Shown here piece after piece: positions 1,918 through 43,106 of a stretch of 64,000 nucleotides of DNA; position 1 is the stretch's first letter; every line of letters begins with the position of its first letter. Under the pieces are notes generated by a model. The model was given only the letters and a program-made list of their open reading frames with translations, was not told the origin of the DNA and made no database searches. Source of the DNA: Liolophura sinensis (lineage: Eukaryota; Mollusca; Polyplacophora; Chitonida; Chitonidae); the NCBI RefSeq assembly GCF_032854445.1, contig NC_088297.1, positions 9,041,375-9,105,374 of the forward strand, read 5' to 3'. The translations under genes and the position numbers were made by a program.

Positions 1918-2408
1918 TTACGTCTTCCTGAACAGATCAACCAGCTCTTGATACCGGCGCTTGAAGGCTTGCCGACTCCCTTCAAACATGGACGACGTCA
2001 CCAGACAGTGAGCGTAGCCGTTCTCTTTCAGAAACCGTCCTATGCAAAACCGATATTTCTTCAGGGTAGGCGGCTCATAGTCTCGACCAGATCCCTTTTT
2101 TAGGACTTGATAAAATTCCTGGAGATACTGGTCCAACTCTGCCGGGGGTATCTTCTCCACTTGCCGCAGCTCGTTGTATTTGCTCCACGTCCACCGTTCA
2201 AGCATAGACACAGCCTTCACCATGTCCAGCACGGTACTCGTAGCCTTTGGTCCTCCCGCGCCCTCTACTCTGCCCTTGATAACAGTTGTATGAAGCCTGG
2301 GTGGAAACAGTGATGGGTAGAGGTGTACCAACTCCTGGAGGTCCTCAGAAACAAAATCCAGGTTTCTTTGAGAAGAAAATCCAGCCGTACGTTCAGTATT
2401 AGGCAGTC
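1918..2408 (-). CDS. Variable terminal exon V15: Crypton-like N-terminal domain
   Basis: The acceptor TTGTTTTTGTCAG precedes 2408; phase 1 entry (G-L-P-N-T-E), about 163 residues, then stop. The domain reads VIKGRVEGAGG, VKAVSMLERWTWSKYNELRQ, VEKIPPAELDQYLQEFYQVL, GRDYEP, YRFCIGRFLKENGYAH, then F-GSRQAFKRRYQEL. The usual LRK before G is KKGSG. It is the last unit seen on the left; the array may continue beyond 1, but no further domain is visible in the first 1.9 kb. A possible AATAAA on this strand is at 649-654. Confidence 0.82.
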
Positions 2409-2561
2409 CTGACAAAAACAAAAGAAAACGGACTACATTACTTTTGACCTAAATTCACGGTCTCATCAACGTCCGGTGTTATGAAACTGGAAATGGAAGA
2501 GGCGTTAAGGCCCTGAAAGTCCGTAAGTCATGTAATCGTAAGTCATGTAATTTCGCGAAGA

Positions 2562-2812
2562 TTTATTATTTATTTGATGGAAGTTTTACGTCGTACTCAA
2601 GAATATTTCATTTACACGACGGCGGCCAGCATTATGGGGGGAAGAAACCGGGCAACCACGACCATCCGCAAGTTGCTGGAAAACCTTCCCCGTACGGCCG
2701 GAGAGGAAGCCAGCATGAGCTGGACTTGAACTCACAGCGACCGCATTGGTGAGAGGCGCCTGGGCCATTACGCTGCTCTAGCGCGGTAACCAACTGGGCC
2801 ACGGAGGCCCCA
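2562..2812 (-). mobile_element. tRNA-headed SINE, full copy with target-site duplication
   Basis: Read on the minus strand it begins GGGGCCTCCGTGGCCCAGTT, a tRNA-like head with A-box and B-box (GAGTTCAAGTCC) motifs, then a body and a tail of AAATA repeats. A 13-base direct repeat, AATTTCGCGAAGA, flanks it (2549-2561 and 2813-2825), which shows target-site duplication on insertion. This is the best preserved minus-strand copy of the window's main SINE family. It lies between V15 and V14. Confidence 0.85.
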
Positions 2813-3480
2813 AATTTCGCGAAGAGGTAACGGTAATAGGAATTCATGCCACCCGAGAGCCGTTGCAATTATGGTAATAGGAAGACCCAAAGTGTCATCA
2901 ATGATGCATTTGAATGCAAATTTGAATGTTAAATTTAAATCATGGTCATCTAGTAGTCATCGTCAAACAAGCTTCAGTTCTACTAAACAATGCATCTGGA
3001 ATACTATATTATTTATAGTACAGTATTAATATTATAATATTTTGCTAAAGGAATACTTAATCATATACCTAGGACAATACAAATCGAGACGTAATTATCC
3101 AGAAACGGTGTAAATTATGTATCTATAATGGAGATAACAGTAAACAAATTCTATAGTCACTTCAACAGCTAGTTGTACCAATACAGCTGACCGACGCCAT
3201 ACAAGTTAAAATTTCTTCACGCACAGCAAAGCGCTGAATGAGCATCAGTCAAATAAATAAATAAATAAATAAATAACGAAAGTTACCATAAAACTTAAGC
3301 CTATACAACACACAAGACACGATAGCTGGAACGATATAAAGAAACCAGCATAATCCATTTCTAACTGAATACTTGGCAACCCACCAGTTGCTTCCTGATC
3401 TCATCGAAACTTGCGACGTGACTCAGTATGTGATTTACGATCTCTTACACCTGGGACTTCAACGTGTACTTTATTGTCTC

Positions 3481-3989
3481 TTACATTAGCTTTACACGAA
3501 GATGTAGTGCACGTCGACTTCGTGCGAACTCCCTGGAAGACGTTATTCGCACTGGATAGCCATTCTTCGTCAAAAACTGGTCCAGACAATGTCTCATCTT
3601 GAAGAGTGTCTGGTGGCCGAAGTCTACTCCGTTCTGACGGACGAGAATTTGCCAGTACTCCTCAAGGTACCGATCCAACTCTGCAGGCGGAATGGCCTCG
3701 ACCTGGCGGTTCTCGTCATGTTTGCTCCACAGCCAACGCTCAAGCGTGGACACGGCACGGATGATGTAGGATGTGTTCTTCGCATCCATCTCATCCGCGC
3801 CAGGAATCCGAGCTCGTATTTCCTGTGCGTGGAACCGCTGAGGACTTGTGGCTGGATATAGATGGCGCAGTTCGGCTCCACTGTACACATCAGAAAGCAT
3901 TGGAAAACCTCTCCCGCTAACGACGGTCCTGATGGCACCAATACCTGCACAGGGCAAATAAGACGAGTTATACGGTGTAACTGTACCTG
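3481..3989 (-). CDS. Variable terminal exon V14: Crypton-like N-terminal domain
   Basis: A tandem acceptor, CAGCAG after TTGTGATTT, precedes or begins the exon (3987-3992); either AG keeps phase 1. About 169 residues, then stop. The domain reads AQEIRARIPGADEMD, IRAVSTLERWLWSKHDENRQ, VEAIPPAELDRYLEEYWQIL, NGVDFG, MRHCLDQFLTKNGYPVRI, then SREFARSRRAL. It pairs with V15 (both have SK-NRQ/LRQVE-IPPAELD-YL and KNGY), so these two form a separate clade. An AATAAA on this strand sits only a few bases after the stop (3470-3475), a ready poly(A) signal for a terminal exon. Confidence 0.82.
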
Positions 3990-5393
3990 CTGAAATCACA
4001 ATAAGCACTAAACAGTACTATCATATCTAACTGGGCGATTCTTAATTTTCATTGGCCAATACAGAACCACAAGGATTGTGATATTTCGCAATGACTGGTG
4101 TACAATGATAACCAAGCGGTTCAAGCAATTCCATGCCACTCACAAAATAATATCCCACGTTCGTAAGGCAAAGGCCAAGGATGTTTTACACCTATTTACA
4201 CGGTTATAGAAAATCTGAATCTATTCATTTGATTTATTTTTCTTTCCTTATATCCTGGGCCTGTTCGACGTGCCTAGTTGGAAACGTACTCTTCCACTAC
4301 TTGGGTGATTAAGGTTTAACAAGGGCTTACAGGTGCCAATAAGAAATCTGAACTCAAGCATTTTCAAGCAACAGGTATACGTTCATAAGGTTTATTGATT
4401 TCTCCCTATAATGTCTTCTCGGTTTGAAACGTAATCTGATTAGATTTTTACTCCCGGTAAGTGTGCTGTTTGTCCAGTGCAAAGCTCATTTCGGTGTTTT
4501 CGGAAAATAAGTTGGCCCCGTTCACATGTGTATATCGGAACGAGAGATCTCATTGTTACTTAGGTTTCATCTCACCAATCAACAGAGCGTTATTGGACGG
4601 GCTGGAACCAGATCTTTCTTCAGACAATCTAAAAGTCCACACCATACAGAGCAAAACCAGAGCAGGGCCGACAGATTGACAGCTGGCAAATGGTCGCACA
4701 TAACCAGTGAAATACGGTCGCTTCACGATTTACCTTGGTTGGAGTCTTATTTTGCCAGCTCATGTAATGATTAAATAGTAGCAAGTTACACGCCCCCTAG
4801 CACCTAGGCAGAAATAGGTGAAAACACTTGCTCCGCTGTTAAATGTAATTTATTAGATGTCACTGGTCCAGTTGTTATTACATGGAGTGCCTACTACATG
4901 TAGACCTGGCTTTAGTGAGAATAAAACCTTATAAAGATGTTTCAGTCAGAGAGACTTGTACCACCGTATAGATTACATTGTGAACACATATAGACAGATG
5001 GTATCACATAACATGGTATAAGTACATTTGTGACGCGAAGAATAAAATAGCCTATAAAAAACACGTTATTCAGAAAAAAAATTAATTCCAGAGCAAGAAT
5101 TAAAGTCTTTCCACGCGAATATTTATAATTACACTGGTGCTCCAAAAATGTTTTACCGAAGTCATGAACTTCTCACGTCTATACGTCACCTTTGACGTGA
5201 GCCTCGAGTCTGTTATACACAAAACACATAAAACATACATGTATATTTCAAGATCAGAAGACCTTTTACTGCCATCTTACAAAGCCATATAGATTGTACG
5301 GTTTCGAAGGAAAACGTGCACATGTCTGTCTATCTAGGAAGACGGTTGATGTTGAATCCACGACTGAAACAATTCAAAATGCGAAAAAGACTG

Positions 5394-5909
5394 TCATACA
5401 GTCCCAAAAGACTGTTGTGACAGCACCGCTTTTCTGAGACGCGAAAACACAGCCTGACTGTTGGCAAAAGCGGCAGATTTGCTAATGGAGAAAGGGTAAT
5501 TCAGCTCCCTCAGGAATCTCTCCAGGTACGACCGTAGCTTGGACAGCCGATGGGCGTCATAATTCTCCCCGTTCGTCTTCTTCACTACCGGGTAGAACTC
5601 GGCCAAATGCTTGTCCAAAATAGCCGGTGGTATGTTCTCCATGAGTTGGTGGACGCCAGGACTGTTGCCAAAGCAGTGCTCGAAGCTATACACGGAGGCA
5701 GCGATTTGTTGAACAGTCTGGATCGGCTTGGTCACTCGGTCCACAATCCTCTCCCTGATGGCCCCGTGTGGTGAGGCTTGTCGGGGGCGGAAGCGGTCCA
5801 GACATGATGTTTATTGGCGCGAGTCTTACCGCTGGCCCTGTAGTAACTTTACCATCTAAACTGTTTGCTGAGGGCTGGTCCCGTATGTTCTCCAGGAATT
5901 GAGTATCAC
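5394..5909 (-). pseudogene. Variable exon V13: Crypton-like domain with a frameshift
   Basis: The acceptor TTTTGTGTTTAG precedes 5909 and entry in phase 1 gives GDTQFLENIRDQPS and on to SGPLPPP. The domain itself continues in another frame: REERIV-like start (RERIVDRVTKP), VYSFEHCF, ENIPPAILDKHLAEFYPVV, NGENYD, LRSYLERFLRELNYPFSI, then FANSQAVF, ending in a stop at 5394. The length from acceptor to stop (516) does not fit the phase, unlike its intact neighbours. The switch falls near a run of five C/G around 5790-5810, so a single indel there is the likely cause. It could be a true inactivating mutation or a sequencing error in a homopolymer. The W of the usual LERW is also replaced by C. Confidence 0.65.
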
Positions 5910-7335
5910 CTAAACACAAAACAGAAGTGCGTGGGAGTTTAACTGGAAGCTTTAATGGCGTCCTGAAGTGGTGGATATCGTCAAGGGTGGAGCCAGTTTA
6001 CATTGCCATGCACGCACGGGATTTAGTCACTGATCGCAAAAAACTATTTTCACAAATTGATCAACATGACAACAAAAACTACATGCACTGAGATTACTGA
6101 CAGATCTGATATGAAGATATTAAAGCATACGATCGTGGTAATACTCTCCTTAGTTTTCTAAACACAGAAGTTAAAAAGAAAACTTGCTGAACACAACATA
6201 TTTCCAGCCTTTCCCACACTTAATATTAGATGGTCACACTGGGTTCGACAAAGCCAAGTCTCATGTGCAACTTTGGTCGCAGCAATTTAAGCACAGGCTC
6301 ATTAACATTCACCAGAGGCCATCTGCTTTAACTTCGCAGGCCTATTTAGTCTACAAACTGCAGAAAGCACTGCTCAAAGTCAGCGATGGGTACAAAGGAA
6401 TGATTGCTTTTATTATTTAAAACACGTGGGACACCAAATGTAAACGTTTCAACCATACATATGAAAATAACAACGACGGAAAATAAAACAACTTTGAAAT
6501 GGATTTTTTTTTTAAAATCACAATGAGTGCAAATCCTTGCCAGGGGAAACAACAATGCAACAGCATACGAACAAAAAAATAAAAATACAAAAAACACGAT
6601 TGTGTCCCCTGAAGAGCAGTTCGAATGCAACATTTGCTGACATGAAAACATTTATAGTTCATAAGTTGAAATTACTCTTGCTATAAAGTGGAGTGGAGTA
6701 CGGAATGTTCAGAATACAACTAGTCATCTAAATTCATGTACACTTAACATAATCATACAGCAAACAAAGGACTGGGAGTAATGAAATACATTACACACTG
6801 CATTTGTCAACATCACGCTGCCTGAAGTTCCAAATGCAGAACTGTGGAAATAGTGTACGGTACCATCATGTTTCCTCACAGAGTCCAAAGGTATGCAACA
6901 CGTGGTTTTAACGAAGCTGTATAAAGAAATTTCCAGTACACGTAAACGGAGAATTTGTAATAAGGGAATGAGTAAAACACACAGCTGAAATCTGCTAACA
7001 ACGCACATAACATGCCCGCCTTCAGTGTGAACCACATGTAACATAAAATAGAATGTCTCTTCCGTTGGACGTATCCAAGAGCTTATACACAAGGAAGTAA
7101 ACTATCAACGTCATTATTACTGAGCTATAGGCCATATATTAACGAAAATACGTAACGATCACGAGCCTCATAAGCCATCCAACATGATATACCATCTTAT
7201 ACAGAAAAAATACAGATTTTAGCATGTATAAACGCACTGAAACTGTATTACAAGAGTTCCACCGGCATATCAGGTTAAAGCACCGGATCGCTGAGACTAC
7301 CAGGCCTACTCACCAATAACTTTGAACGTTCGTAT

Positions 7336-7505
7336 TTATTTAGTGATTTATTTGATTGGTGTTTTATGCCGTGCTCAAGAATATTTCACTTATATGACCG
7401 TGGGCAGCATTATGGCAGGAGGAAACATGGCAGAGCCAGGGGGAAACCCATGACCAGGTTGCAGACGGACCTTTCCACCTACGGTCTGAGAGGAAGCCAG
7501 CATGA
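7336..7505 (-). mobile_element. SINE fragment, same family, head missing
   Basis: Tail and body of the tRNA-headed SINE in reverse orientation (TTTATTTGATTGGTGTTTTA, then the AAGAATATTTCACTTAT core and the AGGAAGCCAGCATGAG motif). The tRNA-like head is absent. It lies in the intron between V13 and V12 of the left gene. Confidence 0.75.
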
Positions 7506-7882
7506 GCAGAAGTTCGTGTGCAGCTCTCTTTATTTCCGCTCAAACATCAAGGGGTTCTTCAAGTACCTTGGGAAGACCGGAGATACTCCTTTATCGTCTA
7601 TCGATAAACCTGTCGGCCGTCATATATTAAAAGATGAATTCTTCCTCACGGCGGTAAGCAACATTCACACAATCAATAAATAAAATAAAAACAAAACATT
7701 GTTATATTTTATGCTGATAGATCCACTGATTTGCTTTACTTAGTAGAATATACGCGTAACTCCCCCCAAAAATCAAGGCTCGCATTTAGTTTTACTACAA
7801 CACAGATACCAAAATGAAAGCCCTGACTTGAATGGAGGTTACGCGTATGCCCTATTATATTCTACCCCACAAGTATTCACAA

Positions 7883-8415
7883 CTAGGATTGTTTTGCGGA
7901 TTCAAAAGACTGCTTTTCCTGGAGGGTTTTCTTACTGAGCGTCAATGCTGCCTGACTAACACGGAACTCCGGAGACCGGGTAATGGACAGAGGGTAGCCG
8001 AGTTCTCTGAGAAATCGCTCTATGTAGGAGCGAGACTTGGCCAAATGTGGCCACTCGTATTCACTACCATCAGATTTACGTAAGTTCGGAAAGTATGTGG
8101 CCAAGTGGGCGTCCAACTCCGCGGGTGGCAAAGTCTCGATGTGTTTATGGCTGCCTGTCTGGGAGGCGATCCAGCGTTCCAGAGACGACACGGCAGTAGC
8201 CATATGCGTAACTGTCTGCGGTGGCTTGTCGTAAATGTTCACAATTCTAGATCGCACATTCGCCAAAATGGACGTTTGTAGCGGCGGGTTTTTCTTCGAC
8301 GCTGAAATTCCTCCGATGGTGTCTGGGATTTGTGAGGTGCCCCAAGCCATCCGAGTCGTCCGCTTTCGGTTCCACTGTCCGCGGTCAGAAGAAGTCGTGC
8401 CCACGATAAACAGAT
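7883..8415 (-). CDS. Variable terminal exon V12: Crypton-like N-terminal domain
   Basis: The acceptor TTTTATGTTTAG precedes 8415; phase 1 entry (D-L-F-I-V), about 177 residues, then stop. The domain occupies roughly residues 52-168: ANVRSRIVNIYDKP, ATAVSSLERWIASQTGSHK, IETLPPAELDAHLATYF, NLRKSDGSEYEW, KSRSYIERFLRELGYPLSI, TRSPEFRVSQAAL, then SKKTLQEK. The lead has a basic cluster (NRKRTTR) that may serve nuclear import. The closest relatives are V11 and V10. The complete reading frame and consensus acceptor suggest a live exon. Confidence 0.84.
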
Positions 8416-9702
8416 CTAAACATAAAATTAGAAGTAGCGTTGTCAGAATCTGCCCTCAACATATGCGTGTAATCGTCAACACTGATCTCAACACTGGGTG
8501 ACTGTAAGAGCTACGTCATAGTTATAACATGTCACTCGAAACGAATCGTGGCTATTTCACGCACTTGACAAAACACCAATATCTTCTTGTCAAATCATGT
8601 GTGTACAACAACGACTGTTAATTGATGCAACGAAGAGGAAGAAATACTAAGAATTTGTGGGCTATCACTTGAACCAATGTCTTGTTTCCTGTTATAGAAT
8701 ACATACACGGGTAACAAATATACGTATCTAATCATATAAATGTACCCAAAACATCAAAAGTTCACGGTGAACTTTATTCGTCACCTTGAAGGTATTGCAT
8801 CGAAACAATTCCTTCCAAGATTTGAAACTCCCAACCCAGTATTTCTATCACAAAATCCACCTAAGTAATAAATGTTGTTCTCCCTGGTGAAACTGTCGAA
8901 ATGCATTAAGCAAAGTTTTGGGCAAGATTCCAAATCTTGCACAAATTATTAAATGCAAACGAGGAAAACTTGTGTTCCACCACTAGCACAGATTTCCGTC
9001 TTATTAAATCATATGCTTAAATACGTTCGTTTCACTGGTGCTATACTTAAAATAAATGAAGTCTGTTCATCGACGTTACCATGCATCCAGCTTGCATGAA
9101 CCAATTCAAAATATATTATAAGCCTCACAATCATTCTTCTATTCACTCTGATGAAAACAAAATAACAGTTCAGTTTATGACACATAATTTCCCTTTCATG
9201 CACCGCTGAGCTTTAAAACAACACATAATCGTACAAATTAAATAACGTCAATGTAGAAAAAAGAAAACAAATGTTACCTTTAAATTATATTTTGGATACT
9301 GCTAAGATCCTCAGTCAGATTCAAATAGGTGTGAATGCTTGAGTACCGGATACTTTGCAAGAAATTCCTTGTAATCGTTTGAAGACAATAACACGTTCAT
9401 GTTGTAGACCGCCATCATTATGCGCGAAACGTGCATTATGAAGTGCGTCATCACCCAACCTGAGGCACTGTTATGTTATGTAACAGAAATGAAGCCCTAG
9501 CTCTTTATGGACACGAAATTTCACCTGTACAGAGAGAAGGAATTTGCAACTGAATTCTCATCCACACTTGGAAATAGTTCATAGCAAACAGGAATCCACT
9601 ATGTGAGTTTGGATGAAGATCTGGATTTTTCGGCTAAATTTTCACTTTGTACAGTTCAGGAACAATCACGAAGAAACACAATGGTAAATTCCACACCCTG
9701 AA

Positions 9703-10238
9703 TCACTTTGTCATGCCGTCGTGTTTCGATGACTGTTTTTCACGCAGTCTGGTCCTGGTGACATTGAAAGCCAAGTGACTGCGGCGGAACAACGGAGATC
9801 TTGTGATAGACACGGGATACCCTACTTCTCGCAAGAACCTCTCTATGTATGATCGACACTTGCACAGGTGAGCCCATTCATATTCACTACCGTCCGGCTT
9901 TCGGAGGTTTGGGAAAAACGTCAAGAGATGTCTATCTAGTTCCTCAGGGGTCAATGTCTCGATGTTTGTCTGAGAACCCGTCTGAGACCAGATCCAACGT
10001 TCCAGAGCAGAGACAGCGGAGACTATGTGGGACACGGTCAGGGTAGGTTTGCCGTCGTCTTTCCGTACTCGACCGCGCACGCTTTCACGTATACAGCGGT
10101 GCATGGCTACCATGTCCTTTCTAGTGGTTGTCCTACCACCGTGGTTCCAAGACCTGTCCAAGTTTTGCGTAGGCACATCGAGAGATGAGCGATGTCCAGA
10201 CAGATCACGGGATGTCACCACGTCCATATTATACAGAT
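9703..10238 (-). CDS. Variable terminal exon V11: Crypton-like N-terminal domain
   Basis: The acceptor TTTTATGTTTAG precedes 10238; phase 1 entry (D-L-Y-N-M-D), about 178 residues, then stop. The domain reads SVRGRVRKDDGKP, VSAVSALERWIWSQTGSQTN, IETLTPEELDRHLLTFF, NLRKPDGSEYEW, CKCRSYIERFLREVGYPVSI, TRSPLFRRSHLAF, then TRTRLREK. The lead holds several Arg-rich stretches. It is one of the best matches to the consensus of the whole array and shows no defects. A possible AATAAA on this strand lies about 0.9 kb downstream (8773-8778). Confidence 0.84.
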
Positions 10239-12338: not shown

Positions 12339-12865
12339 TCAAGCTGTTCTTTTGTTGGGATCAGATGACAATTTTCCCATTAAGTTTTTCTTGCTCATGT
12401 TGAACGCCAGTTGACTTTTCTGGAACTCTGGTGACCTCGTAATAGACCAGGGGTACTCTTTCTCTCTGAGAAACCTTTCTATGTACGACCGAGTCTTCGA
12501 CAAGTGAGCCAGGTCATACTCGCTGCCGTTCGGCTTACGGAGGTTACAGAAGAAAGTCGTGAGATGGTCGTCTAGTTCCGTTGGCTGCATTTTCTCGATC
12601 TGCTTATGTGAACTGGTCATAGACCACACCCAGCGCTCCAGAGCAGAAACGGCGCTTGTGATTTGAATAACGGTTTGGCGAGGTTTTTGTTGAATATCTG
12701 CGATCCTAGAGCGGACATTTGAAATGAAGAAACTTCGCATTTCAGCCGGTACTGTCGAGTTGGAGCTGCCCAGGGATTGGGGTACGTTCCCATGCCATAG
12801 TCCACATGCCGACTGCTGGGCTCCCCGAAATTCCAGCCTTGTTGCTGAGTCCGTATTAAACAGAT
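12339..12865 (-). CDS. Variable terminal exon V10: Crypton-like N-terminal domain
   Basis: The acceptor TTCTATCTTTAG precedes 12865; phase 1 entry (D-L-F-N), about 175 residues, then stop. The domain reads NVRSRIADIQQKP, TSAVSALERWVWSMTSSHK, IEKMQPTELDDHLTTFF, LRKPNGSEYDL, TRSYIERFLREKEYPWSI, TRSPEFQKSQLAF, then MSKKNL. The lead of about 55 residues is Ser, Gly and Gln rich. It is a member of the V9-V12 clade, and its first residues DLFNTD resemble DLYNMD of V11. An AATAAA on this strand lies about 0.8 kb downstream (11543-11548). Confidence 0.83.
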
Positions 12866-14018: not shown

Positions 14019-14494
14019 TTACAAACTGCTCTTCCGTTGCTGCCTTTCCCTATTGTTTGCAAATGCCTGTTGACTTGTGAAGAATTCCGGGGACCTGGTG
14101 ATGGACAAAGGATAGCCACTCTCTCTAAGAAAGCGGTCTATGTAGGACCGACACTTACAAAGATAATGCCAGTCATATTCGCTACCATCAGCTTTACGAA
14201 GGCAGGGAAAGAACGAGGCCAAGTGACCGTCCAGTTCTGCAGCAGACATGGTCTCAATTAGCTTGTGAGATTGCGTTTTTGTCCAAATCCAGTTTTCAAG
14301 GGAGGAAACAGCCGTGGTCAAATCGCTGACAGACTTGCCCGATACCGTGCAACTTTTTTGAATTCTGCAGCGCACGCTTGCAGTGAAGAAACTTCGGTGT
14401 GGTACGTTGACCCTGGGTGATGCAGATGTCCACGGGTTCCATTGCTCACCTTCGTCCTGTGTATGCACTAATAGAGATTTCTTCACTACCAGAT
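14019..14494 (-). CDS. Variable terminal exon V9: Crypton-like N-terminal domain
   Basis: The acceptor TTTTATGTTTAG precedes 14494; phase 1 entry (D-L-V-V-K-K), about 158 residues, then stop. The domain reads VRCRIQKS, LTTAVSSLENWIWTKTQSHK, IETMSAAELDGHL, FFPCLRKADGSEYDW, CKCRSYIDRFLRESGYPLSI, then SPEFFTSQQAF, and a short basic tail. It belongs to the tight group V9-V12, which share the IET, GSEY and SITRSPEF motifs and a near-identical acceptor. CKCRSYI is shared with V11 (9703-10238). No defects are visible. Confidence 0.82.
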
Positions 14495-15313: not shown

Positions 15314-15697
15314 CTAATCCTCCATGATTTTAATCTGGTTTTTGTTGCTGTTGTTTTTTTGTTGTTGTTGTTGTTTTGGGGGGGGGGGGGGGGTCACGAA
15401 CTGCATTTTTTTACAGCCTTTCTTTACGGCATTCAAATGGCTATTGGAGAGTTCTGCAGAGTTGGTAATGGACACCAGGTAGCCAGTTCCTCTTAGAAAT
15501 TGATCTATGCAGGACCGACACTCACTGACACTAAGCGAATTGTACCCTACCATAAGCTTTACCATTTTCGCGGGAGTACACGCTGGTCCCAGTGCGTCCT
15601 AATCCAAATTCGGTTCCCAGACCGCGGTCACTTCGTGGATGGACCTGTCCGTCACCTTGCAACTAATATGAATATTTTTCTACATAGGAATGCAGTT
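15314..15697 (-). pseudogene. Pseudoexon V8: decayed Crypton-like domain
   Basis: The acceptor region (TTTTATGTTCAG before 15697) and the bases upstream match those of V9-V12, so this arose from the same duplications. Reading in phase 1 meets a TAG after about a dozen codons, and a further stop lies in the middle (near PNLD). The second half of the domain is still readable as CRSCIDQFLRGTGYLVSITN, then SAELSNSHLNAVKK, ending near a run of 15 G and a GTT/GTTGTT repeat that have replaced the normal end. The first half keeps only TAV and a few positions. The closest live relative is V9 (14019-14494). Not expected to give a working protein. Confidence 0.75.
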
Positions 15698-20505: not shown

Positions 20506-20984
20506 TTACAGTTCTAACTTGGACAGACGTTGTTTCACAACAGAAAAGGCGCATTGACTAACCGTGAAGAGATCGGAAGTTTCTATTGAATGAGGATAGG
20601 ATTTTTCCTTTAGGAAACGATCGATACAACATCTGAGCTTGGACACATAACGGATATCGTAATCACTGCCGTCAGCCTTCTTCAGGGCAGGGAAGAAATC
20701 TGCCAGGTAGCTGTCCAGCTCTTCCGGTTCCAGCTCCTCAATCCGGATCGTTTTCTGGGTGCGGTCCTTGATCCAGCGTTCCAGCGTCAGAACGGCGTAT
20801 GCCAGATCGTTCATCGTCTTAGGTCTTTTTTTAGTCCCACCATGGATCCTAATGTGCACGTCAGACGTCTCTTCAACCTGAGGAAACACGGGTACGTAAA
20901 TCCGTTTGGATCCACTACTGCGCCGGCGTTTTCCGACTTCCTGACAGGGCTTATCAACACATGGAATCCACAAGACGTCTGGCC
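20506..20984 (-). CDS. Variable terminal exon V7: Crypton-like N-terminal domain
   Basis: The acceptor TTGTTCATTCAG precedes 20984; phase 1 entry, about 159 residues, then stop. The lead carries a basic cluster GKRRRSSGSKR, a plausible nuclear localisation signal. The domain reads AVLTLERWI, IRIEELEPEELDSYLADFF, LKKADGSDYD, LRCCIDRFLKEKSYPHSI, then F-VSQCAFSVVKQRL. The spacing of the landmarks equals that of the other units. It is the most acidic in its central helix. It is probably intact and functional as a coding exon; the DNA target is unknown. Confidence 0.8.
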
Positions 20985-23195: not shown

Positions 23196-23689
23196 TCATG
23201 GACAATGTTCATCTCTGGCATTGTTCCTGAGAAGCTCCTGTTTCCTCTTAGAAAACGCCAAACGGCTTTTGGAAAACTCATTTGAGCGTGTTATAGATAG
23301 GGGGTAGTCGTGTTCTCGGAGAAAGCGCTCGATGTAGGAGCGAAACTTCATCAAGTACCCTGCGTCGTAAAAGCTCCCGTCCTGTTTCCGAAGGTCGTAG
23401 TAAATTTCAGATAAGTGCGTGTCCAAATCCGAAGGTGCGAGTTCCTCTAGCTTTAGATGGATGCCATACTTATGGAACAACCACCGTTCCATCGTTCGCA
23501 CGGCGGTAGAAATGTCGGTGATTGTCTGAGAGGGTTTGCGCTCACCCACGACCACTCGCGCCTTGATACGGGACATGTGAAGCCCCTCGGGCAGCTCTCT
23601 CCCCGTCCGGTCGGGCAGCCAGCGTGAGGGTCTTCTGGGAACTCGACCCTCACTAGTTAGGGTACCGGAGGATCGGGCAACCGAAATAT
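23196..23689 (-). CDS. Variable terminal exon V6: Crypton-like N-terminal domain
   Basis: The acceptor TTTTGCATTCAG precedes 23689; phase 1 entry, about 164 residues, then stop. The lead is rich in Arg, Pro and Gly. The domain reads SRIKARV, ISTAVRTMERWL, LEELAPSDLDTHL, DLRKQDGSFYD, FRSYIERFLREHDYPLSITR, and then F-KSRLAF-KRKQELL. It shares SITRS with the 14.5 to 8.4 kb group but differs in the first half, so it is an outlier of that clade. No in-frame stop or loss of a landmark residue is seen. The longer open frame to 23795 runs through the intron and is not used. Confidence 0.8.
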
Positions 23690-25262: not shown

Positions 25263-25585
25263 TTACTCAGGTTTGGTTTCTAGTCCACAAGGTGACAGAG
25301 AATCGTTTGCGTTAGGCTGAGGCTCTTCTTCCGCCGGACTGTTTAAAGGGTAATTGCACCCCACTGATATTAAGGCTTTTTTCCTAGCCACCAAGCGGTG
25401 GAATATGGAAGTTTTTGGTACTCCAAAGGCTCGGCTGGCCGCCTGTCTCGACATACGTCCCTCCAACACTGCCGACACAGCTTGATTCATGTCCGCCTCG
25501 GACCACGAGCGATATCCTCGTCGCGCCCCCTGGTGGTTACTTCGTGAATAATTCATGGTTGTGTAGCCAGGAAAGTTAACTCCGA
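25263..25585 (-). CDS. Variable terminal exon V5: Pipsqueak HTH
   Basis: The acceptor TTTACTTTCCAG precedes 25585; phase 1 entry, about 107 residues, then stop. After a lead of about 26 residues the domain begins GYRSWSEADMNQAVSAVL, continues EGRMSRQAASRAFGVP, then KTSIFHRLVARKK. It is more diverged from V2/V3 than they are from each other, and closer to the right-gene exon at 63654 (QRAASRM, TTIHRRL against RQAASRAF, TSIFHRL). A 40-residue acidic and Pro-rich tail follows (AEEEPQPN), which could act as a regulatory tail; that is inference. Confidence 0.82.
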
Positions 25586-26100: not shown

Positions 26101-26392
26101 AGAAAACTGGCCTATGCCCGAAAACCTGTACTTTAGAGTAGTTAAAGCGCAGTTTCACAAAGCGGCATACGATAGAAAACTAATCCTATGCCCGAAAATC
26201 TGTACTTTAGAGTAGTTTAAGCGCAGTTTCACAAAGCGGCATACGATAGAAAACTGTCCTATGCCCGAAAATCTGTACTTTAGAGTAGTTTAAGCGCAGT
26301 TTCACAAAGCGGCATACGATAGAAAACTGTCCTATGCCCGAAAATCTGTACTTTAGAGTAGTTCAAGCGCAGTTTCACAAAGCGGCATACGA
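26101..26392. repeat. Tandem repeat, 4 copies of about 74 bp
   Basis: Four units begin CCTATGCCCGAAAA (26111, 26185, 26258, 26331) and end AAGCGGCATACGA. Copies 2 to 4 are almost identical. The last motif, TTTCACAAAGCGGCATACGA, runs directly into the next array, which carries ATTCACAAAGCGGCATACGA at the same place in its unit. Confidence 0.85.
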
Positions 26393-27045
26393 CATTTTTA
26401 TCGTACATTTGTCACTATTACCGTATCAATGTCCTACATGTACGGCATCTGTGTAAAACTGGGCCCAGATTCACAAAGCGGCATACGACATTTTTACCGT
26501 ACATTCGTCACTATACCGTACCACTGTTCTACATGTACGGCATCTGTGTACAAACTGGGCCCAGATTCACAAAGTGGCGTATATATTTACCCTACATTCG
26601 TCACTATTACCGTACCACTCTCCTAAATGTACGGCATCTGTGTAACACTGGGCCCAGATTCACAAAGCGGCGTACGACATTTTTATCGTACATTTGTCAC
26701 TATTACCGTATCAATGTCCTACATGTACGGCATCTGTGTAAAACTGGGCCCAGATTCACAAAGCGGCATACGACATTTTTACCGTACATTCGTCACTATA
26801 CCGTACCACTGTTCTACATGTACGGCATCTGTGTACAAACTGGGCCCAGATTCACAAAGTGGCGTATATATTTACCCTACATTCGTCACTATTACCGTAC
26901 CACTCTCCTAAATGTACGGCATCTGTGTAACACTGGGCCCAGATTCACAAAGCGGCGTACGACATTTTTATCGTACATTCGTCACTATTACCGTACCACT
27001 GTCCTACATGTACGGCATCTGTGTACAAACTGGGCCCAGATTCCC
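26390..27045. repeat. Tandem repeat, 7 copies of about 95 bp with a 285-bp higher-order unit
   Basis: Each unit has TACATGTACGGCATCTGTGT, then CTGGGCCCAGATTCACAAAG. Unit starts at about 26390, 26486, 26578, 26675, 26771, 26863 and 26960 show that copies 1-3 recur as copies 4-6 at an exact 285-base offset. The open frames across it are by-products of the repeat. It lies in the intron between V5 and V4. Confidence 0.85.
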
Positions 27046-27374: not shown

Positions 27375-27601
27375 TTACTCCAATGCCGTTTTAGCTTTCG
27401 CAAATCGACTTCGAAGGGACGACGGAGGCAAATCTGTACTGATAAGCGGTCTGATTGTCATTTTCACGGCTAAGACGGCCTCCATTGCTTGGACCATGTC
27501 TTCCTCTGCCCAGTTGCGATAGAACGCCGGTCTCCCTAATGGGATCCCTTTACGTGCCGGGGGAACGTCATGCAAGGGAGATTCTTCACGTGTGGAACGA
27601 T
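27375..27601 (-). CDS. Variable terminal exon V4: degenerate Pipsqueak HTH
   Basis: The frame is open from about 27601 to a stop at 27375. The first half is a good Pipsqueak match (AFYRNWAEEDMVQAMEAVL). The centre is unusual: the SGK-AA stretch is replaced by AVKMTIRPLISTDLPPSS, and only SSL-R-AKAK at the end is recognisable. No gap is needed to align it with V3, so this is substitution rather than a frameshift. The acceptor is weak. A TGTAG gives the phase-1 entry used here, while a CAG 12 bases upstream would enter in phase 0. It may be a decaying exon or one with altered binding. No premature stop is seen. Confidence 0.5.
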
Positions 27602-28631: not shown

Positions 28632-28948
28632 TTACTTCGAGTTTTTCTCTGTCAGCCTAGCCTTCGCCACACGGTTCTGCACAGAGGATTTGGGCACTTT
28701 AAAGGCACGTGCTGCTTCGGAAACTTTCAACTTGCCCGACAAAACAGACTCCACGGCCTGAACCATGTCCTTTTCCGACCAGTTACGGTAAAAGGAAGGT
28801 CTATTGGAGGGCATAAGTGCATACAGACGATCAGAGGCCGCCGCGAAGTCATTGTTGGGGGCTTTGCTCTCACGTTCAGCTACACCAGGGTTAACAGACG
28901 AAGGACATTCGGACAGATTGCCTGGCGATTCCAGGTGGCGAAGAAAAA
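28632..28948 (-). CDS. Variable terminal exon V3: Pipsqueak HTH
   Basis: The acceptor TTCTCCATTGCAG precedes 28948; phase 1 entry, about 105 residues, then stop. The lead (about 50 residues) contains Ser, Pro and acidic residues and runs open in frame through to PSNRPSFYRNWSEKDM. The HTH reads VQAVESVLSGKLKVSEAARAF, then VPKSSVQNRVAKAR, keeping every landmark of the Pipsqueak domain. The in-frame ATG just before the domain would give only about 60 residues; the phase-1 acceptor further up is preferred because it matches the donor of constant exon 2. Role inferred: sequence-specific DNA binding in one protein isoform. Confidence 0.82.
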
Positions 28949-29482: not shown

Positions 29483-29733
29483 CTATGGTTTCCCCGTCGA
29501 TTTCTTCTTTGCTACTCGATCCTGAACAGATGATCTGGGTACTCTGAATAGTTTAGCGGCCTGTGATGTTTTTAGTTTTCCTGACACAACGGCTTCAACT
29601 GCCAGATCCATATCTCTTTGTGACCAGTTACGGTAATACGCTGGTCTATTCGGGCGATCCAGTGTGAGGGTTTCGCCTTTAAAGGTAGTCAGTATATCAG
29701 AGAGGTCAGATGAGGTGGGGAAGTGGGCAGAAA
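29483..29733 (-). CDS. Variable terminal exon V2: Pipsqueak HTH
   Basis: The acceptor TTTTTCGTTGCAG precedes 29733; phase 1 entry, about 83 residues, then stop. A lead of about 30 residues precedes a Pipsqueak-type helix-turn-helix: YYRNWSQRDMDLAVEAV, SGKLKTSQAAKLF, then VPRSSVQDRVAKKK. The aromatic-RNW start, DM, GK, AA and VP-SS-R landmarks of the family are all present, so it should be able to bind DNA. The exon ends soon after a basic tail. Its closest neighbour is V3 (28632-28948), with the same RNWS-DM and SGKLK pattern, suggesting local duplication. Confidence 0.82.
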
Positions 29734-32821: not shown

Positions 32822-33423
32822 TTATGAACTTTTGGACAAGTTCTGGGGTTCATCGCTGTACTCCTGAGCAGCATTACGCTGGGCGAGGGCAGCTGCTAGC
32901 TGGAGATTCAGAAAGTAATGGCGGTGCCGTGCACGCCTTCGCTCCACTGAAGCCTTCGCAAGCGCCTTCCGCTTGTCATTGTAGATGGCCTGGCTTTGGG
33001 AAAACACAGAAGAACTGCTCAGGGAAGCTGGATAGCCACGCTCTTTCAAAAACCGCTCCAAGAACGAACGAAAGTTTGAGAAAGACTCTGGGTCATAGTC
33101 ACAGCCATGGCGATTTTTGAGAATTGAAAAGAAGGAGACCAGGTAGCTGTCCAGTTCAGCGGGAGGGATTTCTTCTATGTTCCGGAAGTCCTGGTGATTT
33201 GCGGCTAGCCAGTTCTCCAGTTTACTGACTGCCCCGACCAAGTTCCCAACAGTCGTAGATGACTTGCTCTCAATGTTTGCAATGCGCGCTTTCACACTCC
33301 CGCTGGGCGCATTCCTTTTAGCAGGGACAGGTAACTGAGCTCTTCCCCTGGGCTGGACAGTGGCGTTTTCAAAGTTTTGCGGGAATGCTGGGGAGGAGAC
33401 CGATGTGGGTGGACACTCTGGAA
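32822..33423 (-). CDS. Variable terminal exon V1: Crypton-like N-terminal domain
   Basis: First variable unit after constant exon 2. The acceptor TTTCAG precedes 33423; it enters in phase 1 and ends in TAA after about 200 residues. A Pro/Ser-rich lead of about 43 residues is followed by the domain: KARIANIES, KLENWL, IEEIPPAELDSYL, then FRSFLERFLKERGYP and a final helix rich in K and R. The motif order resembles the SAM-like DNA-binding half of Crypton-type tyrosine recombinases (ZMYM2/QRICH1 type). No catalytic half follows. The C-terminal tail is longer than in the other units, has a basic cluster RRRARHRH, an Ala/Gln-rich helix, and ends EPQNLSKSS, a possible CtBP-binding motif of the PxNLS kind. 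An AATAAA lies on this strand at 32257-32262. Confidence 0.78.
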
Positions 33424-36178: not shown

Positions 36179-37718
36179 ATACAATATGATCTTCTTCTAC
36201 CCTGTAATGCTTATTTCATACTTTCATCAATATTTTTCTGTTTGAATCTGACACAACCAATAGATGTAGGCATCAAGGAAATCAGAGATGGGGTGATTTG
36301 GTGATTTTTCTCCATACATCTACAATGTCGATCTAGAAAATTGGAAAGGCCTTGTAGCAATTATTTTCTGTCTACTTCCACATTTATAGTACACCTCAAA
36401 GCTGATTGGTTTTTTTTTTTTTTTTTTTTTTGCTCCTCAGATGTATCAAGCCATGTGTAAATTTGTACACGAAATTTTGTATTGATCGTTTTCAGGCTTG
36501 GATTTCCATACAATGTGCAGTAGATAAATTCAAATATATGCAAAAATCTTTCTCCGATTGTTTTTAGTGTACATGTACCCAGCTCTACAACCTTTACACA
36601 CACCATCCATGTTTGTCTCATGATCTGTAAATAATTACACAGATCACATGTACATATCCATGCATCTATGAAAACAATAAATAAAAACCAATTTACAGGT
36701 GCAAATTAAATTCTTTAAAAATTTTGTGAGACAGAAAACATGACCAAGTGTCTTTATGTAGAACACATTCAAAATTGTATAAACATGTAACTGTATATGT
36801 AAAGGTTGAAGAAATCAGCAGAAGACACCAAACCATAATTCTGTTAATCAACAAAAAAAAACACAGTACATGGATCCAGTGGATGTTTGCATCAGATGCA
36901 CAGATCCACAGGTTCCCTAAATCCCACATGTCAGCCCTGGGCAGCCATGACATGTGAACACATGGACAATTGCAAAAAAATTTGAAGGTTTTGATAAAAA
37001 AAACCTTGCAACTGCACACAAAGAAAAATTTATAAAATGAAGCTTTTAAGTCTACAAATGAAAGAAATTGTTAAGAAAATTAATCTTTTTTATTGGTAAA
37101 CTGTCATCTTGATTCTTGTTAGTTTTAATACAGCTTGAGTTTGGGCACCACATACTTTCCAGAAGTAAAATGGTTCTGATAATACATTAGACATCTCAAA
37201 GTCACTTTCAAACCAACCCCCAAATTGGTATCATGTACATGTATGTTTTACCACTGCCTTTTTTTCAAATTTTGCCAAACATTATGAACAGAATGTGTGC
37301 ATGTCACAGCTTGCTTATCCAGAGCTGAAAATGGGAACACTTTGGGGTAATCCAGGCCACAATAAGAAAACACATGCAATGGGATAGGGAAGTGTAATTG
37401 AAAGGAATGCGAATTCTACACTGACTGTGTGCTTCAATGAGACATTTGGCTGAAATTCAGGTGTTTGACAGGAAATGCTCAGAATTCGTGTGCAGCAGTT
37501 TGAACGTGACATCACCTGTCTGCATGGCTGCTGATTAACAATGATCAAGTTTATCTTTATAAGCGATGAACGTTCATGTGCACTGGAATTTACAAATGTT
37601 ATCCAAATAATGACACTGTGTAACATGGTCATAGGGCCTACAAGGATTGCATGTATGTGTCACAGCTCCCACCTTTCAGTTAGACCTCTAATGGCCATCA
37701 GTCTGCGCTAATATTTCC

Positions 37719-38004
37719 CCTATGTCCTTATGTAAACAATGTACTTTGTCAGTAAAAAGGCTAAAAAGATTTCTAGTTTGAATTAGTGCTGTCTGTGTCA
37801 TTATGTAAACAATGTACTTCTGTCAGTAAAAAGGCTAAAAGGTTTCTAGTTTGAATTACTGGTGCCTATGTCATTATGTAAACAATGTACCTTTGTCAGT
37901 AAAAAGGTTCAAAAGATTTCTAATTTGAATTACTGCTGCCTATGTCATTATGTAAACAATGTACTTCTGTCAGTAAAAAGGTTTCTAGTTTGAATTACTG
38001 CTGA
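37719..38004. repeat. Tandem repeat, 4 copies of about 74 bp
   Basis: TTATGTAAACAATGTAC recurs at about 37729, 37803, 37876 and 37949, each followed by GTCAGTAAAAAGG and TTTCTAGTTTGAATT. The last copy is shortened. Confidence 0.85.
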
Positions 38005-38724
38005 TGTCTTCATTCACAAACCCACAAGTGTCATGACAACAAAGGGTGCATAACTCTTCCATCTTTGCGAGTGATGAGATGGCTGGGTTAGGGTAGCAGT
38101 TCTAGAGATTTATTCACATCCTTTAATTAAATGTTATAAATATAGCCTAATGAATACATGGTGCATTCAAACCAGCTTATCTATCTGGCAACAAAATCCA
38201 TTTTTAAAGGAAAAGACAGTATACCCCAAAAGAAAGCCAGTCTTAATAACTTTTAGCTATGAAATTCATTTGAGTCATAGTTTGAAGCGTCCGGGTTCCA
38301 TGAAACGAGCAGGGAGCAACATGTACAAGTAGCTAAATGTGCTAAGTGCTGATTTTCACCGAATCCTAAACAGTTACATGTAAGTACTGCAGAACACCGA
38401 AACCAGGACATCTTAGCGTTAGGCACACTCTGGTTACTTTTCCTGCATGTCTTGAAGGACAATAACTTAAAAGCTATATTTTTGGTTTTTTTTTTTTTTT
38501 TGTCAAATCTTATGCAATGCCTATTTTGCCTTGGTTAAATTCATTTTGTTTTCAGCTCGAGTGCTCTAGTCACATGACCAAAGAGTGTGCTGGTGACAGG
38601 CTCAATCACTGCAAACCTGACTAAATGACTAAATTTCATAGAAGCTTTAATAAGGCATTTAAACATAGAATGCCACAGACATGTAAGATTAGAGAGTGAC
38701 ATTAGGGGGGAACTTAGTATGTCA

Positions 38725-38841
38725 ACACTATTACGCATCTACCACATTTGACCTAACAACTCGTCCCCACTATTACCCACCTACCACATTTGGCCTAACT
38801 CCTCATCCCCACTATTATGCACCTAACACATTTGGCCTAAC
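38725..38841. repeat. 42-bp tandem repeat, 3 copies
   Basis: CACTATTA at 38727, 38769 and 38811 begins each unit, followed by CACCTACCACATTTGGCCTA with small changes. Confidence 0.8.
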
Positions 38842-39311
38842 TGACAGTTGCTCATTTTGCCTGATTCTGAGAGTTCTATTGATTAAAGAAACTTGCTTTG
38901 AGTTTTTTGGTTTTTGTTTTGTTTTGTTTCGTTTTGTGTTATCAAAGCGCAGGATATCCTACAGAAACTTGAAAATTTCAATGTCACAAGTAATGTTTAT
39001 TTGTCTCAACAAATGCACTTTTTCATGCAAATTTCTGGGCCAACCAAATGGCCTGCTTATGCCTGCATTCATCCCGCCCGCTGATCCGCTGAATTGGTGC
39101 CTTGAGAAGGACTGTAGAGTGGAAATCAAGACAACCTTTACGGACTAGCTGTACCAATCTTCTGTTAGGGTACTGGCTTACAGTTTGACGAATGTTGTGC
39201 TATGGCAAAAGGCCTGATGAACCTTGTACTGTTTCTGTACACCTACAAAAACATAAACATGTGTCCTGGATCCCCCCAAAGAGGTGAGTAAAGAAGAAAA
39301 AAAGCACCCAC

Positions 39312-39920
39312 CTGTGCTGCTGCTATCCTGCTGATCAGCCGAGTCTCCGCTTGAGGTGGAGGGCACAGGCTGGGACTGAAACAATGATGCAGCATTTTCC
39401 TCGTTGCTCGGGTCAAGGCTGCTATAGTCTAATGTAAAGTTTGCGCTGGAGTCGCCAGACTCCTCCAAAGCGCTTTCACTGATTATGGACATGAGGCTCT
39501 GGTTGACAGGCTCTATGTGTAATGCTGGTGATGAAGAGGATGATGAAACTTTTCTGAGCTTGGAGGGTGAATGACTCCCGTCGGACGGACCGACGGATTC
39601 TGAAGTCCTTTTTCTAGGAGTGTTCCTTGAAACAGTGGAATCGTCGTGCCTATGCAAACTCACAGGGAAAACCGACTCATCTTCCTGAGGCTCCTCCTTT
39701 ATCACAACAATGTCAGGCGACAGCCTGGCTGCCACCTCTTCCGACTGGTCCAAATGTGAAAGAATAGGGTGAGATAATGAATCGCTGTGTGGCCTTTGGA
39801 TAGAGTTGTCTCCCATCCTCCGGCCATGGTGGTGGATGGGAGTTGTGTCCCTATTCACTGTAGGTGGAGCTGGTTTGTGACCTTTTAACCAGACTGGATC
39901 AGGATCTTCCCCTGAGCATT
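39312..39920 (-). CDS. Constant exon 2 of left gene (Ser-rich linker with candidate SUMO site)
   Basis: The acceptor TTTCAG lies just above 39920 and the donor GTGGGTG begins at 39311. The exon is phase 1 in and phase 1 out, about 202 codons. The segment begins with C-SGEDPDPVWLKGHKP, then a low-complexity region, RLSPDIVVIKEEP (IKEE fits the psi-K-x-E sumoylation motif), FPVSLH, a basic patch PRKR, a serine run SSSSSSPA, QSLMSIIS, and an acidic Ser-rich tail. The same blocks in the same order occur in the right gene (54603-55229), while the spacers have diverged. This looks like a disordered regulatory linker of a nuclear protein; that role is inferred. The reading frame stays open past the donor for about 45 codons, but the constant splice phase shared with the paralogue argues for the donor. 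Confidence 0.8.
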
Positions 39921-40029
39921 CTGAAATATTTCACAAAAGCAATTTCTATATGTCTTGAGTTGTCTAGTTACTGCACAGTGCACTGAGCATCTCGCCGTGT
40001 AAAAGCCTTGTAAAAATATCTTATTCTAA

Positions 40030-41420
40030 CCTACTCACAGTACTGCCTCAGTGGAATCCCATACAATAGACGCCAGGCCTACTCACAGTACTGCCTCAGT
40101 GGAATCCTATACAACAGACGCCAGGCCTACTCACAGAACTGCCTCAATGGAATCCCATACAACAAACACCAGGCCTACTCACAGCACTGCCTCAGTGGAA
40201 TCCCATACAACATATGCCAGGCCTACTCACAGCACTGCCTCAGTGGAATCATATACAATAGACACCAGGCCTACTCACAGTACTGCCTCAGTGGAATCCT
40301 ATACAACAGACGCCAGGCAACAGACGCCAGGCCTACTCACAGTACTGCCTCAGTGGAATCCCACACGATAGACACCAGGCCTACTCACAGAGCTGCCTCA
40401 GTGGAATCCCATACAACAGACACCACGCCTACTCGCAGTACTGCCTCAGTGGAATCCCATACAACAGACACCACGCCTACTCACAGTACTGCCTCAGTGG
40501 AATCACATACAACAGACACCACGCCTACTCACAGTACTGCCTCAGTGGAATCACTCACAATAAACACCAGGCCTACTCACAGTACTGCCTCAGTGGAATC
40601 CCATACAACAGACACCAGGCATACCCACAGTACTGCCTCAGTGGAATCCCATAAAATAGACACCAGGCCTACTCACAGAGCTGCCTCAGTGGAATCACAT
40701 ACAACAGACACCAGGCCTACTCACAGTACTGCCTCAGTGGAATCCCACACGATAGACACCAGGCCTACTCACAGTACTGCCTCAGTGGAATCCCATACAA
40801 TAGACACCAGGCCTACTCACAGAGCTGCCTCAGTGGAATCCCATACAACAGACACCACGCCTACTCGCAGTACTGCCTCAGTGGAATCCCTTACAATAGA
40901 CACCAGGCCTACTCACAGTACTGCCTCAGTGGAATCCCATACAATAGACACCAGGCCTACTCACAGAGCTGCCTCAGTGGAATCACATACAACAGACACC
41001 AGGCCTACTCACAGTACTGCCTCAGTGGAATCCCATACAATAGACATCAGGCCTGCTCACAGTACTGCCTCAGTGGAATCACATACTATGGACACCAGGC
41101 CTACTCACAGTACTGCCTCAGTGGAATTACATACAACAGACGCCAGGCCTACTCACAGCACTGCCTCAGTGGAATCATATACAATAGACACCAGGCCTAC
41201 CCACAGTACTGCCTCAGTGGAATCACATACAACAGACGCCAGGCCTACTCACAGTACTGCCTCAGTGGAATCACATACACCCACAGTACTGCCTCAGTGG
41301 AATCACATACAACAGACGCCAGGCCTACTCACAGTACTGCCTCAGTGGAATCACATACAATAGACACCAGGCCTACTCACAGAGCTGCCTCAGTGGAATC
41401 CCATACAATAGACACCAGGC
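40030..41420. repeat. 48-bp minisatellite, about 29 copies, in intron 1 of left gene
   Basis: The unit contains ACTGCCTCAGTGGAATCCCA and GACACCAGGCCTACTCACAG. Because 48 is a multiple of 3, the plus strand reads as long Thr/Ser/His-rich open frames (106 and 336 codons) with no start context, no domain and the wrong strand for the host gene. I treat it as noncoding. It ends against a dispersed repeat at 41417. Confidence 0.88.
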
Positions 41421-41572
41421 CCGGGATCAGGAGGGGATATTACACTTACGTCAACATTTGAAATCACTTTAACTTAGTTATTTCTTATGTGACAAGGTTA
41501 AAACATTGCTTGACAACATCAATTCTGGGAAAGTTATTGTTCAACAAAATTCAGCTAAAATAACCGAAAGGT
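41417..41572 (+). repeat. Dispersed repeat, copy 2
   Basis: Similar to 17892-18050 over most of its length (ATTTGAAATCACTTTAA, ATTGCTTGACAACAT, TTCAGCTAAAATAACCGAAA). It directly abuts the 48-bp minisatellite, which may have started next to it. Confidence 0.6.
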
Positions 41573-42300
41573 CTATGATGGTTTTATGGTCTCAGGGCCA
41601 GTAATGACACCCCACTCAGCCACAAAAAAAAAAAGCATAGAATCAGCCAATGCTTGGCATGTTGGCCATATTACGACATACTATTTATTTACTTCATTAA
41701 TGTGAATACAGTACTGTACTAATACTGCACATTAAAAATTTGAATATCATAAGTAAACTACTGTTCTTCACCGGCATATAATTTAGCCAGAATTTGAAAT
41801 CTGGTCATCGCATTTCCAATTTTCTCCTATTTTCTCTATCGCTCCCATGTTAATTTGGTCAGAATGGGGCGTCTCAGAGACACTGAGACACCCCTCTGAC
41901 TACACTTATGTTGACAGGGTACAAGTGTCTCATGAACACATGACAAAATACCACAGCACCTTACACTGAAATGACATGCCTCTCACATTTTGATCAATAT
42001 GACTACAAAGGCGCAAGCTGATATATGCCTGAACATTACAAAAAGAGACAACAAATTTAATGTGTGTATGCTCATGGTTTTATGTAATATTCAGCAATTA
42101 GCAGTGGTTGGAATTGAAAAGAGCAACTTTCAACGCAATATATGCACTTTCTCAATTTTCATTTTGGAGACAGAAGTACACTGGTTCAGGTTGCCCAGTT
42201 TCAGGTCTTCATAAAAGTATAATTTTATTAGATTTTATACAATAATGCTCTCAGAATATGCTTGAATAAACATTTTGAAAACATATAAAGAGGTGGAAGA

Positions 42301-42600
42301 ATTACAGCAGATTTACTTTTGACACTTGTACTTATGAAAAATGGAGACGTACGTTTCATTTTTATTTCTACGGTGATTTATCTAAGGAGTCCCTCCCTGG
42401 TTCCATTTTGTTTATGTTTCATAAATTATACATCTACATATTAAAATAAAATAAAAAAGTTGGTACATGTATATATATATTTAAAGAAAGGTTGAAGATT
42501 TACAGCAGCTTTACTTTTGACCTTTGTACCTGTGAAAAATGGAGATGTACATTTTATGTTTATTTCTATGGTGATTTTTTCAGTTTTTTTAGCTTATATG
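42301..42600. repeat. Imperfect tandem duplication of about 190 bp
   Basis: Two stretches share ATTTACTTTTGACACTTGTA-like sequence, then GAAAAATGGAGA-GTAC and TTTATTTCTA-GGTGATTT (about 42301-42380 and 42490-42585). The intervening GTTCCATTTTGTTTATGTTT stretch and AAAGTTGGTAC motif recur again at about 44848-44945. Confidence 0.6.
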
Positions 42601-42861
42601 ATCAATGAAGTATGCTCATCGTTTAAGTTCACTCATAACACAATAACACGCTAGAAGGTGCATACAGGTGTACACACATGAATCATCCACTAGCTAATGA
42701 GGGGGCTGGAAATGACTGTTTTCAACTAGGGAGCCAATGATCTATTTGATACCTAATCTGGCTCCTAGGGATAAGGAATTGATGTGGTAACATCACATTT
42801 TCCAGGAGCCAAACTAGAAATTTACGGACATTTGACTCCTACAATGCTTTCATTTCAAAAC

Positions 42862-42900
42862 CATAATGATACAGTTCCTTTAGCCTTGCACTCTGCTATT
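42862..42900 (-). repeat. Single relic copy of the exon 1 end inside intron 1, left gene
   Basis: On the minus strand, just after the exon 1 donor, the sequence AATAGCAGAGTGCAAGGCTA and AAGGAACTGTATCATTATGG repeats the last 40 bases of exon 1 with several changes. The splice-site GT is not kept (ATTATGG in place of ATTAGGT). It corresponds to the unit that has multiplied on the right side at 52114-52688. Confidence 0.75.
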
Positions 42901-42912
42901 TTTATTCATTAC

Positions 42913-43106
42913 CTAATGATATAGCTCCTTTCGCCTTGTACTCTGCTATCCTCAGGTCCACCCATATTGCAAACTGTGACAAGATGACAGGCTCACTGCA
43001 GAGTTCTCCAATAATACAGGCAAACTTGTTCTGCACTCTCTCCAGCGTCACTCCCATTGTGTTAAAATATAAAAACTTTCAGGACTAGAACTTTTAAAAC
43101 TACAAT
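42913..43106 (-). CDS. Constant exon 1 of left gene (48-residue N-terminus)
   Basis: The start codon is at 43055-43057 and 48 codons follow, beginning MGVTLERVQNKF and ending KAKGAISL. The exon ends at 42913 with one base of a split codon and a GTAATG donor. A CAG acceptor after a T-rich stretch (43107-43109) suggests a short 5' UTR of about 49 bases in this exon and a further upstream noncoding exon. The peptide is mixed hydrophobic and charged and probably helical, with no signal peptide; I do not recognise its family. It matches the right-gene exon 1 (52009-52153) at every residue with three synonymous changes, which strongly supports it as coding. Start choice: first ATG after the acceptor, conserved in both copies. 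Confidence 0.85.

Follow-up and report, generated by a model that had tools for sequence, protein, structure and literature searches.

The chiton Liolophura sinensis carries, on a 27,489,247-base contig (C3) of its 609 Mb assembly, a gene in which one constant N-terminal region is followed by a long array of alternative terminal units. We analysed a stretch of 64,000 nucleotides of this contig (C3:9041375-9105374; hereafter the window, from whose first letter positions are counted). Protein searches with the predicted products showed the constant region of the locus to be identical to that of LOC135463292. The coding part of exon 1 (42913..43057, minus strand) encodes 48 residues modelled as a two-helix hairpin, and exon 2 (39312..39920, minus strand) encodes a predicted disordered segment with conserved VIKEEP and RKR motifs. 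A phase-1 join of exon 1 (43057-42913) to exon 2 (39920-39312) yields a 251-residue constant region that ends in ...DSSST plus one base, and this translation bears out the claim of a preliminary description of the locus that exon 2 leaves in phase 1 from a donor at 39312.

Downstream of this donor, on the same strand, the array opens with an intact recombinase-type unit at 32822..33423 (acceptor 33423 or 33387). Pipsqueak helix-turn-helix units follow at 29483..29733 (34.5 bits, against a cutoff of 20.4), 28632..28948 (32.0 bits) and 25263..25585 (33.1 bits), all above the PF05225 (HTH_psq) cutoff, while a decayed Pipsqueak unit at 27375..27601 has a weak acceptor and no Psq match in Pfam. Further recombinase-type units lie at 23196..23689, 20506..20984, 14019..14494, 12339..12865, 9703..10238, 7883..8415, 5394..5909, 3481..3944 and 1918..2408, and a relic of such a unit, a domain fragment of 28 bits, lies at 15434..15544. 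The four units with acceptors at 14494, 12865, 10238 and 8415 are intact; that at 5909 is broken, its acceptor opening a short frame and its domain lying in another (5397-5810). The array runs on past 1918, with seven more units of LOC135463292 to the left of the window, all of recombinase type. In total it holds 21 units, comprising 10 recombinase-type and four Pipsqueak units inside the window (two of the 14 broken) and seven recombinase-type units outside it. The about 13-15 alternative ends originally proposed were therefore too few, with the broken units at 5909 and 27601 included in the present count.

Several gene models start from the single donor. NCBI isoform X3 of LOC135463292 is 39312 joined to 23689, letter for letter (415/415 residues), X5 and X4 are exact joins to 20984 (410/410) and 2408 (414/414), and X2 corresponds letter for letter to a join with a unit at window position -4772, 4.8 kb beyond the window start. 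These independent models support the earlier proposal that one N-terminus is joined to many alternative ends. Isoform X6 uses the acceptor 3944, and 405 of its 407 residues fit the unit before an apparent splice at a donor after 3485. This likely donor lies directly before the stop of the 3944 unit and takes X6 to a further small exon, so that the 3944 end is not strictly terminal. Proteins with "isoform X" names are presumably RefSeq pipeline models, and isoforms of such models normally rest on RNA reads.

AG precedes all 14 positions named in the preliminary description, and 12 of them (33423, 29733, 28948, 25585, 23689, 20984, 14494, 12865, 10238, 8415, 3989 and 2408) lead in phase 1 to a single complete domain followed by a stop; the description failed at the frame-broken 5909 and the decayed 27601, and its 3989 is 3944 in X6. 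A phase-blind acceptor score picked exactly the named position in 10 of the 14 cases. Elsewhere it placed 33387 above 33423, which came second, preferred 3944, with 3989 outside the top three, found nothing strong for the 5909 unit and ranked 27608, in phase 0, above the weak 27601. Over 294 kb around the window, 40 of 44 units had their best acceptor in phase 1 (binomial P 2e-15) versus 85 of 201 control open reading frames, which may include other real family exons; since the units are duplicates of each other and not independent, P values from such counts overstate the evidence. The mean best score was 4.30 for units and 3.48 for controls. The 44 units are those with recombinase matches of at least 80 bits or Psq matches of at least 25 bits, and four recombinase matches below that limit lie in the first 264 kb. 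By their coordinates, all 44 are on the same strand as the first exon upstream of them. Differences between units fall mostly at third codon positions (0.55-0.71, versus 0.29-0.39 at second positions, in nine pairs), including ends without a model, which indicates that the ends are kept as coding sequence. Intronic 6-mers before the acceptors of the 44 units held no strong shared element; the best, CGATAT, occurred in 8 of 44 against 1.3 expected, a figure uncorrected for many tests.

The fold predicted for the common end resembles that of QRICH1 and that of the Cre recombinase core-binding domain, and on this modelled structure the end is a core-binding domain of the tyrosine-recombinase fold, of the Crypton/QRICH1 type. 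Pfam QRICH1 matched 31 of 70 family members at E up to 0.01, and some members carry a precomputed match; the units in the window fall below the cutoff. Comparison of the ends with solved structures by sequence gave no convincing match, and Pfam matched no recombinase catalytic domain in them, no search dedicated to a catalytic YR remnant having been made. Other family genes have ends with C2H2 fingers, CENP-B/Tc5 helix-turn-helix domains or Psq domains, and the ends have a basic character, with a net charge that averages +4.8 across 97 domains. No BTB match was found by Pfam in the 70 family members or the constant exons. The 48-residue hairpin, as modelled, probably serves self-association, and the conserved motifs of the disordered constant region resemble SUMO sites and nuclear signals.

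The preliminary description treated the locus singly; judged by matches to its first exon, it is one of about 45. The 48-residue exon has 45 matches genome-wide (35 on C3, seven on C7, two on C1 and one on C6), and most of the family genes thus lie on one 27.5 Mb contig. With one recombinase-type end as query, at least 150 such ends were found, scored among 281 candidates, and a stop lies inside only six of the 150. For every one of these 150 the closest family first exon upstream is on its own strand, at most 70.1 kb away, and none lies outside the arrays; random strands placed a mean of 110.5 and a maximum of 123 of 150 on the matching strand in 1000 trials. Scored ends follow 31 of the first exons, with up to 17 each. 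Among 123 listed proteins, which are cluster representatives at 90% identity and were grouped by gene from their names and shared prefixes, 105 isoforms of 19 genes start with a prefix shared within the gene, 228-316 residues long, before their ends diverge; LOC135463552 alone accounts for 24 of these isoforms. Ends cluster by gene, with 28 label changes on a tree of 97 ends versus 67.0 when shuffled, except for four small gene groups (C7a, 852, 764 and 658), which indicates that the arrays grew at least largely by tandem duplication. This tree, built from end domains cut out by a hidden Markov model and leaving aside the four Psq units and the 5909 unit, has poor resolution, with 12 of its 94 inner branches starred. 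In public annotation the family proteins are mostly uncharacterized or named by a single end, e.g., zinc finger protein 16-like, and the common design is thereby hidden.

The two first exons on C1 are divergent (45-50% identity) and may be older members; one of them lies near an open reading frame with a weak Tc5-type helix-turn-helix match (L033:1173-1706 and L033:4607-4747, both minus strand) and may represent an older single-end member. At window positions -49320 to -49045 on C3 (the tail of P0073), a terminal unit of LOC135463764 has no Pfam match at E up to 0.1 and may represent an additional type of end. For relatives outside Liolophura, two initial protein searches listed Liolophura proteins only, apart from two short pieces, P0084 (86% to LOC135463325) and P0085, which are pieces of family constant exons that differ from those of Liolophura and come perhaps from another chiton. 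All 120 listed of the 121 matches in a third search were from Liolophura, and with 8000 candidates scored this search cannot show absence elsewhere.

A second family gene, LOC135463294, lies head to head with LOC135463292 in the window. Its first coding exon (52009..52153, plus strand), exon 2 (54603..55229, plus strand) and an end at window position 82953 (plus strand) together reproduce the NCBI model exactly, and a Pipsqueak unit of its own array (63654..64000, plus strand; 52.5 bits, above the PF05225 cutoff) has a reading frame that runs past the window end. The first exons of the two genes agree at 141 of 144 bases, and the likeness extends into the intron, with about 94% identity over 197 bp, whereas the second exons share only about 43% protein identity, a contrast that points to gene conversion or to a recent copy of exon 1. 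A tandem array of about 11.6 copies of 50 bp (52114-52681), each built from the 3' end of exon 1 and its GT donor, extends from exon 1 into intron 1 of LOC135463294, so that the 5' splice site is itself repeated, with a possible effect on splicing. Minisatellites were found at 40030-41421 (48 bp units), 58239-60178 (51), 60885-62287 (38) and 26370-27043 (96), one of the four sitting in the LOC135463292 intron that separates exon 1 from exon 2.

Taken together, we consider it very probable that LOC135463292 belongs to a set of about 45 constant/variable genes in the chiton genome and that its single start is spliced in cis to alternative last exons. Exons 1 and 2 would form one start, transcription would proceed through the array of about 65 kb, and the phase-1 donor at 39312 would be spliced to a single last exon out of about 20 alternatives, each with its own stop. 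The chosen exon would set the C-terminal domain, either the recombinase-type core-binding domain or the Pipsqueak helix-turn-helix. The model further presumes that the proteins act in the nucleus, that their ends recognise DNA and that every unit has a poly(A) site of its own, along with some means of choosing among the ends. The many DNA specificities suggested in the preliminary description are putative.

Several observations weigh against this proposal. The junction evidence consists of gene models rather than reads, and poly(A) signals, as support for a separate 3' end of each unit, showed no enrichment. In searches with predicted products of the locus, none of the four Pipsqueak ends was present in any listed protein or model, nor were the ends at 33423, 14494, 12865, 10238 and 8415; the 12865 and 29733 ends were part of the protein queries, so at least these two would have appeared as full-length matches. 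Thus, of the combination of Pipsqueak and Crypton-type ends proposed earlier, both kinds of domain are present and several recombinase-type ends have NCBI models, but no model joins a Pipsqueak end.

Alternatively, splicing may occur as proposed, with the recombinase-type ends acting as protein-binding adaptors that choose partner proteins rather than DNA sites. QRICH1, which is among the best structural matches, is part of a solved complex in which, by the entry title, it is bound to a zinc-finger protein on DNA, and the recombinase-type end, likened to QRICH1 in Zincore, which binds zinc-finger factors, could therefore be a protein-binding domain instead. The classical DNA-binding types among other family ends, together with the basic charge of the ends, argue against this, and we regard the adaptor role as a real possibility that falls short of an even chance.

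An improbable variant is that the ends have transcripts of their own, to which exon 2 is joined by trans-splicing, as happens at mod(mdg4) and lola in the fly. The distances are long, with up to about 61 kb separating 39312 from the farthest unit, and would allow it, as would the near-identical first exons of several genes. However, every unit, whether one of the 44 local ones or of the 150 scored genome-wide, follows a first exon in the sense orientation, so that cis-splicing suffices and trans-splicing is not needed; in addition, isoforms of one gene have one common constant prefix. It is more improbable still that the units are tandem independent genes, each with its own promoter, and that the annotation pipeline produced the NCBI isoforms as chimeras. 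An in-frame ATG does lie upstream of the domain in 25 of the 44 units, and for most units of the locus no model makes the join to exon 2. Yet the other 19 have no such ATG, and the phase-1 acceptors, the exact exon-2 joins in X2-X5, the 105 isoforms in 19 genes and the confinement of all scored units to family first exons would be hard to reconcile with independent genes. Finally, mobile-element debris, that is, Crypton or pogo copies inserted near one gene, is hardly credible: both domain types are transposon-derived in other animals, as described in portions of PMC3212892 and PMC10027918, but the scarcity of internal stops, the codon-position pattern of constraint, the lack of unit matches outside arrays among the 150 scored of 281 candidates and the lack of a Pfam catalytic domain match in the ends all speak against it.

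A broader reading can be put forward tentatively, and we hold it to be rather doubtful. In it, about 45 related starts would drive a repertoire on the scale of a chromosome, made up of at least 150 and perhaps more than 250 exchangeable ends of nuclear proteins. The hairpin could let products of different genes assemble, giving a combinatorial identity or genome-defence code made from a transposon recombinase fragment. Cells could then combine ends, on a scale comparable to clustered protocadherins or KRAB zinc fingers.

A literature search found no title or abstract opening that describes such a locus, most subscription papers and all bioRxiv preprints being outside its reach. The main texts of two chiton genome papers (PMC11068029 and PMC12005716) do not contain "zinc finger" or "transcription factor", the "isoform" passages of the latter being methods, and PMC10027918, in its available part, covers seven molluscs with no chiton among them. 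By domain, the nearest precedent is the vertebrate KIAA1958, for which the accessible portion of PMC3212892 gives two isoforms whose Crypton-derived (DUF3504) domains differ and lie on separate exons. The chiton genes likewise have alternative Crypton-type ends, and one member is named a KIAA1958 homolog by its source; unlike the two ends of KIAA1958, about 20 are present at LOC135463292 and 24 are listed in LOC135463552. The end fold, as modelled, is that of the Crypton-derived QRICH1, with weak to clear Pfam QRICH1 matches, although, unlike in QRICH1, WOC and ZMYM proteins, most chiton ends terminate shortly beyond the core-binding part, each exon having a single domain and each gene many such exons. 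We know of no alternative-exon array in plant ALOG proteins. There, a recombinase N-terminal DNA-binding domain was recruited as a regulator, a role that the chiton ends may share, and carries an inserted zinc ribbon, unlike the chiton ends (PMC3537659, in part).

The closest likeness in architecture is to Drosophila lola and mod(mdg4), with 20 and at least 30 isoforms, respectively, and BTB domains, where constant N-terminal exons are likewise combined with many alternative terminal exons that differ in their DNA-binding type domain (PMC11426971, in the portion available). In contrast to these two loci, the chiton has about 45 first exons, a constant part that lacks BTB and starts with the modelled 48-residue helical hairpin, ends that are mostly of recombinase core-binding type rather than C2H2 or FLYWCH, and units seen only on the sense strand. 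With dozens of such genes, the chiton family looks like a large build-your-own regulator toolkit outside insects. To our knowledge, large constant/variable regulator loci are familiar only from insects; the same architecture in a mollusc, with an unrelated constant domain, another end type and dozens of genes, should offer a second system in which to study what lets a single donor pick from many last exons, what drives the evolution of such loci and by what route a transposon recombinase domain gave rise to a large repertoire.

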